From assembly GCA_028714635.1 (NCBI GenBank), contig JAQTLZ010000006.1, forward strand, positions 1-57,249: a DNA stretch of 57,249 nt. The letters run 5' to 3'. Position numbers and translations under genes: made by a program. The notes beneath the pieces were generated by a model. It was not told the origin of the DNA and ran no database searches. It saw nothing but the letters and a program-made list of their open reading frames with translations. This DNA is from Candidatus Paceibacterota bacterium (GTDB taxonomy: Bacteria > Patescibacteriota > Minisyncoccia > Phycocordibacterales > JAQTLZ01). Below are positions 49,519 through 52,106 of the stretch, in pieces; positions within the stretch are counted from its first letter, which is position 1, and each line of letters opens with the position of its first letter.

Positions 49519-49595
49519 ACAGCGTATAGCGTCAAGCGTCGAGGAAAATGCGTTTGAATTTACTAAACGCTACCCGCTACGCGCTCGGCGCTGTT
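49519..49595. repeat. Inverted array of AGCGTNN heptamers
   Basis: The left arm (49519-49542) reads AGCGTAT, AGCGTCA, AGCGTCG. The reverse complement of the right arm (49564-49595) reads AGCGCCG, AGCGCGT, AGCGGGT, AGCGTTT. The design matches the AGGGTNN element at 11225-11342: heptamers in inverted arrays at a gene end. The right arm is also the last codons and stop of the MBL-fold gene. Confidence 0.6.
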
Positions 49596-50227
49596 AAAAC
49601 CGCGATCTCCCCTTCCTTCCCTTCCAAATCTTTTTTCTTGAGCGTTAATTTTTCTTCGGGCTTAGCGTTTTCTTCTCCTTCTTCTTTCAAAAATGCTTTG
49701 AACGCATTTGCTTTCCCCACCATTCCGTAATGCATCGGGATAATAAGTTTCGGCTCAAGGTTCACAGCAAGCTTGTGCGCGCCAGCAGAATCCAAAACTC
49801 CTTCTCCGCCGATCGGTATAAAGAGAATATCAATGTCTTCGATCGCCTCCGTGATTTCTTTCGGAATATCTACTGTGTCGAGTGCCCCGAGAAAAAGCAT
49901 ATTCATGGAATCAAACGAAACGAGATAGACAGTATTAATAATTTCTTTTCCTCCCGAAATCGAATAGTGCGAAGGTGAAGCGAAACCTTTTATGAAAACT
50001 CCTTTTGTTTCGTATTCTCCGGGACCAGAGATCACAAGCGGTTTTTTGTCGCCAAATTCCATCTGCTCAACACCGTTCATGTCTGGGTGATTGGTCGTCA
50101 CAAGCACAGCATCGGCGCCAAAGCGAGCTCCTTTGTGTTTGGAATCCTTGGAAATAGGGTTGATTGCGAGCGTAATATCTCCTTGCTGAATTTTGAAAAA
50201 TTCGAGGCCTTGGTACGTGATTATCAT
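49577..50227 (-). CDS. MBL-fold (UlaG-like) protein with incomplete metal motif
   Basis: 216 residues. The metallo-beta-lactamase-like strand order is visible: FKIQQGDITLAINPI, DAVLVTTNHPDMNGVEQ, KPLVISGPGEYETKGVFIKG, MLFLGALDTVDIPKE and LIIPMHYGMVGKANAF. The motif where active members have HxHxDH reads TNHPDMNGV, so at least two zinc ligands are missing, while the later His of PMHYG is kept. It may bind one metal or be a non-catalytic relative. The C-terminal Lys/Glu-rich tail overlaps the AGCGTNN array. Confidence 0.8.
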   Translation of the reverse strand: MIITYQGLEFFKIQQGDITLAINPISKDSKHKGARFGADAVLVTTNHPDMNGVEQMEFGDKKPLVISGPGEYETKGVFIKGFASPSHYSISGGKEIINTVYLVSFDSMNMLFLGALDTVDIPKEITEAIEDIDILFIPIGGEGVLDSAGAHKLAVNLEPKLIIPMHYGMVGKANAFKAFLKEEGEENAKPEEKLTLKKKDLEGKEGEIAVLTAPSA

Positions 50228-50304: not shown

Positions 50305-50332
50305 TTGACAAAAAAACTGTATATGGTAAGAT
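50305..50332 (+). promoter_or_regulatory. Promoter of the 50338 structured RNA
   Basis: TTGACA (50305-50310), a 16-bp A-rich spacer, TAAGAT (50327-50332). It is one of the best -35 boxes in the window. Transcription would start near 50338. Confidence 0.7.
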
Positions 50333-50337
50333 AGTAC

Positions 50338-50757
50338 CACAGCGTCAACTACTGGGGTTGACACTGAGAAGGGGTGCGGCGGCTTCTGTCATCAACAGGA
50401 AGCGTAACAGCGGTTCTCAATCAGTCGATGGGAGTCGCCGCATCACATTAAGTTCTTTTTAATATTTCCAGTGCTGGTGGGGATCAATAGTTGCCCACAA
50501 AGTCCGGGAGTTTCTCCCATGGGGCGATTGCGGTCGCCTCTGACATAACGGCCAATGACGGCCATTGGGGTAACACTCGCCAGCACACCATCCGACAACG
50601 ATAGCCTGTGAGATAAGAGGGAACGAACTTCGTCTATTCCCCCTTTAAGCAGACTGCCAAATTGTTGCCGGACACAAACAGGCCATTCATTCCTAAGCGC
50701 TCTCTGATTTTTTTATCAGAGATCGCGATAAAGAAAGAATGGCCTTTCTCGTTTTTA
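50338..50757 (+). ncRNA. Putative large structured non-coding RNA, about 420 nt
   Basis: There is no convincing reading frame on either strand. Visible pairings: CAG-GTCAAC/GTTGAC-CTG (50340-50366); TGCGGCG/CGCCGCA (50375-50381 with 50436-50442) enclosing GCTTCTG/CAGGAAGC; TGAGAA (50365-50370) with TTCTCA (50414-50419), which would cross that helix as a pseudoknot; GTGCTGG/CCAGCAC (50471-50477 with 50580-50586) enclosing GGGAG/CTCCC, GGCGA/TCGCC and CCAATG/CATTGG; and TCCGACAAC with GTTGCCGGA. It has its own promoter, and ends in a double-stem terminator with TTTTT. It does not match RNase P, tmRNA, SRP or 6S consensus elements that I can check. Confidence 0.7.
50680..50756 (+). terminator. 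Compound terminator of the structured RNA
   Basis: AGGCCATTC (50680-50688) pairs with GAATGGCCT (50737-50745), enclosing TCTCTGAT/ATCAGAGA (50701-50708 with 50715-50722). TTTCTCGTTTTT follows. Confidence 0.7.
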
Positions 50758-50915
50758 TGTATTAAAACTTTGACTTTTTCATGCTTTTCCGTATACTAAC
50801 CCCTGCCTGTTCATCATCTATAGATGGATTCAAGGCATTACTAATTACGTTAAAAGTTAACCCGGTTTGCTCGACAGTTACGAAATGAGCATTCTGACCT
50901 TTTAATTCATAATTC

Positions 50916-52106
50916 ATGGCATTAAAGAACACTCTCATGTCCGCCATCGGGATGGACACGAAGAAGAAATCTGCTCCAAAAGCAGATGACGCAGTTGAGG
51001 TAAAGGATGCAAAGGCGGGCGACGCTCATCCAGTCGAAAAGAAAAAGGACAGCATCATGTCCAAGTTTTTGAATGAGACGAAAAATCCTCCGGTCGCTGG
51101 AGATCTCGTCGAAGGTACTGTTTTGGCGCTTGATAAGACAGGCGTCTATATTGACCTGCCTCCGTACGGCACAGGAATTATTTTCGGAAGAGAATATTTG
51201 ACCGCTCGCGACATTATCAAAAAGATAAATGTCGGAGATTCGATCACGGCAAAAGTTGTTGATACCGAAAATCCTCTCGGTTACATCGAACTCTCTCTCA
51301 AGGAGGCTCGAACGGCGCTCATTTGGACACAGGCAGAGGAAGCGATCCGAGACAAAACAATTCTCGAGCTTCCTGTCAAAGAAGCGAACAAAGGAGGACT
51401 TATTCTCGAATGGCAAGGCATTCAGGGATTTTTGCCTGCTTCACAATTGAAAGCGGAGCACTACCCTCGCGTATCTGAAGGAGACAAGGACAAGATCCTT
51501 GAAGAGCTTCGAAAGCTTGTCGGTCAGAAAATTGCTGTTGCGATCATCGCCGCTACTCCGAAAGAGAACAAGCTCATCTTCTCTGAAAAGAATCATGAAG
51601 AAAAAGATAAAGGAAAGATTATCGAGAAATACAAAGTCGGAGATGAGGTGGAAGGCACTGTTACCGGCATCGTTGATTTCGGAATCTTCGTGAAAGTTGA
51701 GGAAGGACTTGAAGGACTCGTGCATATTTCAGAAATTGACTGGGCGCTTGTCGAGGATCCAAAGCAGTACTTCAAGATAAACGACCGTGTCCGAACAAAG
51801 ATCATTGAAATTAAAGACGGCAAAATTTCCCTCTCTGTTAAAGCTTTGAAACCAAATCCTTGGATCGAAGCTTCGAAGAAATACAAGAAAGATGATGTTG
51901 TGAAAGGCGTTGTCATCAAATTCAACAAGCACGGCGCGCTCGCTTCTATAGAAGAAGGGGTTGCAGGTCTTGTGCACGTCTCCGAATTTGGAGGCGAAGC
52001 GAAGCTTCGAGAGAAACTCGAGCTCGGCAAGACCTACTCATTCAAGATCAATCTGTTTGATCCGAAAGAGCAGAAGATGGCGTTGTCGTTTGTAGATAAA
52101 AAGTAA
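50916..52106 (+). CDS. rpsA: 30S ribosomal protein S1
   Basis: 396 residues with four S1 (OB-fold) domains rather than the six of E. coli. The domains start near residues 60 (GDLVEGTVLALDKTGVYIDL), 145 (LILEWQGIQGFLPASQL), 240 (GDEVEGTVTGIVDFGIFVKV) and 325 (VVKGVVIKFNKHGALASI). The first 50 residues are Lys/Asp-rich and unstructured. S1 helps capture mRNA on the 30S subunit; with many genes here lacking a Shine-Dalgarno sequence, it may matter for initiation (inference). It lies downstream of the structured RNA, from which it is separated by a terminator. Confidence 0.95.
   Translation: MALKNTLMSAIGMDTKKKSAPKADDAVEVKDAKAGDAHPVEKKKDSIMSKFLNETKNPPVAGDLVEGTVLALDKTGVYIDLPPYGTGIIFGREYLTARDIIKKINVGDSITAKVVDTENPLGYIELSLKEARTALIWTQAEEAIRDKTILELPVKEANKGGLILEWQGIQGFLPASQLKAEHYPRVSEGDKDKILEELRKLVGQKIAVAIIAATPKENKLIFSEKNHEEKDKGKIIEKYKVGDEVEGTVTGIVDFGIFVKVEEGLEGLVHISEIDWALVEDPKQYFKINDRVRTKIIEIKDGKISLSVKALKPNPWIEASKKYKKDDVVKGVVIKFNKHGALASIEEGVAGLVHVSEFGGEAKLREKLELGKTYSFKINLFDPKEQKMALSFVDKK

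Follow-up and report, generated by a model that had tools for sequence, protein, structure and literature searches.

A probable structured RNA gene outside known families, upstream of rpsA in a genus of Paceibacterota

The gap between an MBL-fold protein gene and rpsA in a Paceibacterota bacterium (Patescibacteria) very probably contains a real structured RNA gene of about 410 nt that lies outside known families, since the sister species carries the same architecture written in largely different letters. Coordinates given here refer to the window, the whole stretch of 57,249 nt of DNA that was analyzed; the host genome (G000) comprises 0.99 Mb in 23 contigs. The comparison genomes from the same genus were two, the sister species G002, matching JAQTSY010000010.1 (isolate STB_28), and G001, matching JAQTTF010000043.1 (isolate STB_34).

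Organization of the locus and the predicted transcript

The MBL-fold gene (PF13483) lies on the minus strand at 49577-50227 and rpsA, with its S1 domains (PF00575), on the plus strand at 50916-52106, leaving 688 nt between them. The initial annotation described about 690 bp without a protein gene, and the comparison of the window with the sister species agrees: a conserved frame was looked for on both strands of the gap and none was found. Across the order the MBL-fold gene remains next to rpsA, with a gap ranging from approximately 140 nt to more than 1 kb (L034-L073) whose content differs by family and includes various small genes or cassettes, some with their own promoter and a terminator-like hairpin.

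A predicted sigma-70-type promoter, TTGACA-16-TAAGAT with TG ahead of the -10 (50305-50332, plus strand), is present as annotated. The promoter scan by itself was weak (4 sites found against 1.8 expected); the same site is kept in G002, and the promoter together with the 5' end of the RNA is 85% identical in the two species. The locus thus has a predicted promoter of its own, as a stand-alone ncRNA gene should. The transcript would cover 50337-50757 of the plus strand (about 410-420 nt, start and end both being predictions). This segment folds at -168.4 kcal/mol (z = -8.9), and 0 of 100 dinucleotide shuffles folded as low, bearing out the many nested helices reported earlier; without the 3' hairpin the core gives z = -4.3. 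The antisense strand of 50337-50757 likewise folds well (z = -6.75), so that single-strand stability alone cannot fix the strand. The plus strand is favored by the promoter and by the G-U pairs of helix P2, which would be A-C mismatches on the minus strand. We infer transcription of the RNA, its ends, its action in trans and a partner.

All parts of the RNA lie on the plus strand. Folds and alignment place at its 5' end hairpin P1 (50341-50365), which has a constant loop UACUGGG (50350-50356) and a stem with compensatory changes. The long hairpin P2 (50373-50444), recovered also by a covariance model, has 18 pairs (50373-50390 with 50427-50444) and a conserved base TGCGGYGG. Sequence comparison delimits the linker that follows, ACATTAAGTTCTTTT (50445-50459), which is the same in both species and in the window is taken up in part by a weak AU hairpin. 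Folds and alignment then give the multibranch domain P4 (50471-50586), closed by GTGCTGG/CCAGCAC, with a base GUGC-GG/CC-GCAC kept in the sister, and folds give hairpin P5 (50591-50672), present in both species with a sequence that is not alignable. The two helices singled out earlier, TGCGGCG/CGCCGCA and GTGCTGG/CCAGCAC, both occur in the minimum-energy fold of the window. The pseudoknot proposed along with them fared less well: its strands TGAGAA (50365-50370) and TTCTCA (50414-50419) exist in the window, but the G002 RNA has no complementarity at the corresponding places, which gives no support to a pseudoknot common to both species. A kissing interaction between the P1 loop (ACUGG) and CCAGU at the P4 base was rejected as well, being found in the window and missing in G002.

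The RNA would end in a compound hairpin (50680-50747), a probable terminator and conserved 3' domain whose internal loop CUAA/GAUAAA is invariant between the window and G002. The inverted repeat is real, with arms at 50680-50705 and 50720-50745 that are 77% complementary, and the hairpin is 91% identical in G002 over 79 nt. The compound terminator of the initial annotation therefore stands as a conserved stem and not as a canonical terminator, since its T tract is interrupted and a simple intrinsic-terminator scan made no call there. A function of this hairpin as terminator of the RNA is plausible. The hairpin (91-93%) is far better kept than either the RNA core or the fourfold sites, and its invariant internal loop is asymmetric; this conservation suggests a role beyond termination.

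Downstream of the RNA, rpsA has a separate predicted promoter, TTGACT-16-TATACT (50770-50797, plus strand), which is kept in G002 and whose -10, TATACT, is also found in G001. A further element, distinct from the RNA, is a motif in the rpsA 5' leader (50849-50906), which was also observed at L039, L040, L044, L057, L064, L065 and L069-L073. It consists of an outer helix that closes just ahead of rpsA, a 5' side reading (G)UUAACC, UAAUCC or UUAUCC, an inner helix and a short A-rich 3' side. Its descriptor scored 12 or more in 20 of 35 upstream regions, some of these 20 being chance folds, against a shuffle mean of 1.3. The motif is common to several families of the order, in genomes without the present RNA, and gave no Rfam match in the window; it may serve as an S1 leader in autoregulation.

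Comparison with the sister species

The corresponding gap of G002 carries a 455-nt counterpart RNA (z = -7.85). Neighboring genes of the window and G002 show 90-94% nucleotide and 97.5-99.5% protein identity, and their fourfold sites, pooled over six genes, are 71% identical. The RNA core reaches 57% identity in an anchored alignment (A4), below those fourfold sites. Folded separately, the two RNAs nevertheless share the order of helices in their minimum-energy structures (P1, P2, P4 on its GUGC-GG/CC-GCAC base, P5, 3' hairpin), with P1, P2, the P4 base and the 3' hairpin at corresponding positions, and G002 has one more helix of about 60-75 nt between P1 and P2. The promoter, the loop UACUGGG, the linker ACAUUAAGUUCUUUU, the 3' hairpin and the order of helices are constant in both species, and the helices themselves have been rewritten. 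In G002 the start of rpsA is also separated from its leader by an extra stretch of about 160 nt (L002, approximately 1680-1840), which is absent from the window and looks inserted.

The core cannot be aligned by ordinary alignment because the helices are common to both species while their letters differ, as anchoring showed. Global MAFFT of the two loci misaligns it, and A4 was therefore anchored on CAGC, the loop UACUGGG, GUGCGGYGG, the linker and GUGC, with anchors set and loops trimmed by hand. In this alignment P1, P2 and the P4 base comprise 30 pairs, every one of them standard in both species. Eleven of the 30 have changed on both sides and five on one, a result that 0 of 500 shuffles matched; when the partner strand is displaced by 1-3 columns, pairing falls from 100% to 29-59%. 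With the changed bases taken as given, all 16 altered pairs would remain canonical by chance with a probability of about 2e-7, an optimistic figure, as it is uncorrected for the use of structure in placing the sequences, chiefly within P2.

As a hold-out test, a covariance model derived from the window sequence only (R3) found the P2-linker region of G002 at 27.7 bits (E = 3.1e-5; 9.8 kb, filters off), the next-best match in that search scoring 9.5 bits; with default filters the same region was the sole match in 179 kb (E = 5.8e-4). Much of this score comes from the identical linker sequence. A window-only model with P2 shifted by two columns, used as register control, scored 20.9 bits, 7 bits below R3. 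The covariation is suggestive, since with two full sequences a significance of the R-scape type is beyond reach.

Known RNA classes and distribution

The Rfam search proposed for the locus was run and returned no known class. With Rfam 15 no match reached gathering score in the window, and permissive scans of both species gave only below-threshold microRNA models (E of 0.055 or worse), in agreement with the initial failure to fit the RNA to RNase P, tmRNA, SRP, 6S or group I/II introns. Covariance models for RNase P RNA (RF00010) and tmRNA (RF00023) have no match at the locus, and both genes lie elsewhere in all three genomes of the genus, in the host at G000:C3:7075-7414 and G000:C3:156905-157302, respectively. 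The present RNA resembles class A RNase P RNA in its size (about 350-400 nt) and its several helices, and AAAGTCCGGGAG in the window resembles that class by chance, the resembling stretch being missing from the sister RNA. The host assembly contains two RNase P RNA genes above gathering score, G000:C3:7075-7414 (L087) and G000:C17:363-743 (L089), and one of the two contigs may be a contaminant; the RNase P match of G002 spans 586 nt, as if it carried an insertion.

Nothing at the locus matched the SRP RNA models (RF00169, RF01854). Since these models found SRP RNA in none of the three genomes, one might suspect the present RNA of being a housekeeping RNA, such as SRP RNA, too diverged for Rfam models to recognize. 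We consider this hardly credible: the searches also miss some control genomes, including Bacillus subtilis, neither RNA has the conserved SRP domain IV signature, the permissive scans gave no SRP match, and RNase P RNA and tmRNA are accounted for elsewhere.

For 6S RNA there was no Rfam match, and separate helices follow one another along the present fold, whereas 6S RNA is a single long hairpin with a central bubble. Group I and group II introns gave no Rfam match to a catalytic core, and OLE, ROOL, GOLLD and the other Rfam 15 families no covariance model match. Like OLE, ROOL and GOLLD, the present RNA is predicted to stand alone, is several hundred nucleotides long, combines several helices with a multibranch domain and has no protein frame; unlike them, it keeps helices with little sequence and is seen in one genus only. 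Those three RNAs are reported to form homo-oligomers (PMC12286853). It also resembles the DIMPL-type orphan ncRNA candidates of GC-rich intergenic regions in its long intergenic region and stable fold, but those candidates usually have many homologues (PMC8723152, PMC8632094), against two sequences here. The RNA is a new candidate family within a known kind, the orphan structured bacterial RNAs.

Blastn with the window RNA found matches in 2 of 98 relatives, and a two-sequence covariance model (R1) recovered only G000 and G002 among the same 98. Among 384 genomes of the class R1 gave no credible match, and blastn with the G002 RNA against 297 genomes of the order returned, apart from G002 and the window, no more than four short weak matches. 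No further copies were detected in the host genome by blastn, and phage, plasmid and viral collections gave no match beyond chance matches to the linker. Candidates resting on the linker were rejected: its pattern ACATTAAGTTCTTTTNAA occurs in 39 stretches of viral contigs, each a match to the linker alone, its frequency in the 297 genomes of the order is near chance, and a covariance match in G334 (21.7 bits) turned out to be a complement of the linker where an unrelated gene begins. The two G001 contigs concerned break off at the locus, which hides the RNA of that genome; to read this break as a sign of population diversity would be over-interpretation, the contig having only 2.7-fold coverage.

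The suggestion of a new long ncRNA of this lineage is thus upheld as regards a discrete RNA gene outside known classes, but the lineage is narrow. The locus was found in relatives as G002 only, there with compensatory changes, the 96 other relatives having no match; within the genus two of three genomes have the RNA and the third is broken at the locus. As the RNA diverges so fast within the genus, distant homologues may escape such searches, and as it was not found outside the genus, long-term selection on it is unproven. On sequence evidence the gene is probably functional and limited to the genus.

Proposed role and alternative explanations

The locus fits best, with some reserve, a stand-alone structured RNA gene of about 410 nt whose product acts in trans as a scaffold or as the RNA of an RNP. 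We favor this reading because the constant parts are short and mostly unpaired (loop, linker, CUAA/GAUAAA) and the changing parts are helical. The RNA would be transcribed from its own promoter and end at the compound hairpin ahead of the separate rpsA promoter. It would fold as a chain of helices, P1 and P2 followed by the single-stranded A/U-rich linker, the multibranch P4, P5 and the 3' hairpin. A partner, either protein or RNA, would dock on the loop UACUGGG and the linker; the helices would act as spacers selected only for shape, their letters free to drift.

The main rival to the scaffold reading is a seed-type regulatory sRNA, in which the constant linker or loop would recognize at least one mRNA by base pairing, the remainder stabilizing the molecule. 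A linker that stays identical while its flanking helices change is what a seed would look like, and many sRNAs have their own promoter and a 3' hairpin. However, a search of the host genome for near-perfect complements of the 15-nt linker gave none (no reverse-strand match with at most one mismatch), and a molecule of 400 nt that includes four large helices would be bulky for an sRNA of this type, which makes such a function unlikely.

We judge it quite improbable that the RNA came into this variable gap as a mobile or selfish element or as part of a defence system, on the pattern of a retron, omegaRNA or cassette, and that the fast helix changes reflect allele turnover. The different small inserts in this gap in other families, the divergence of the core beyond the neighbors' fourfold sites and the extra helix of G002 would suit such an element, but the RNA has neither a reverse transcriptase gene nor a nuclease gene as neighbor, and the searches of the host genome and of the phage, plasmid and viral collections described above speak against it.

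Still less probable is a cis-acting rpsA leader, in which regulated read-through of the 3' hairpin would let the RNA control ribosomal protein S1. The RNA is on the same strand immediately upstream of rpsA, its T tract is poor, and its linker is A/U-rich, the type of single strand that S1 binds. On the other hand, rpsA has its own conserved promoter past the 3' hairpin and its own conserved leader, and relatives keep rpsA leader motifs without the present RNA.

Returning to the scaffold reading, we suggest only tentatively that the RNA represents a new bacterial class of scaffold RNA for RNPs, confined to a lineage of Patescibacteria, with a few constant unpaired segments and a constant 3' domain set on helices kept strictly for their shape, the helix sequences being replaced no more slowly than fourfold sites. 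In the open-access literature we found no study of lineage-specific structured RNAs in Patescibacteria. An RNA of about 400 nt is here kept in a genome of roughly 1 Mb, its shape conserved while its sequence drifts fast, and its constant segments are concrete candidates for partner testing. If the proposal is true, lineages with very small genomes would maintain private RNA machines that are invisible to sequence-based annotation.
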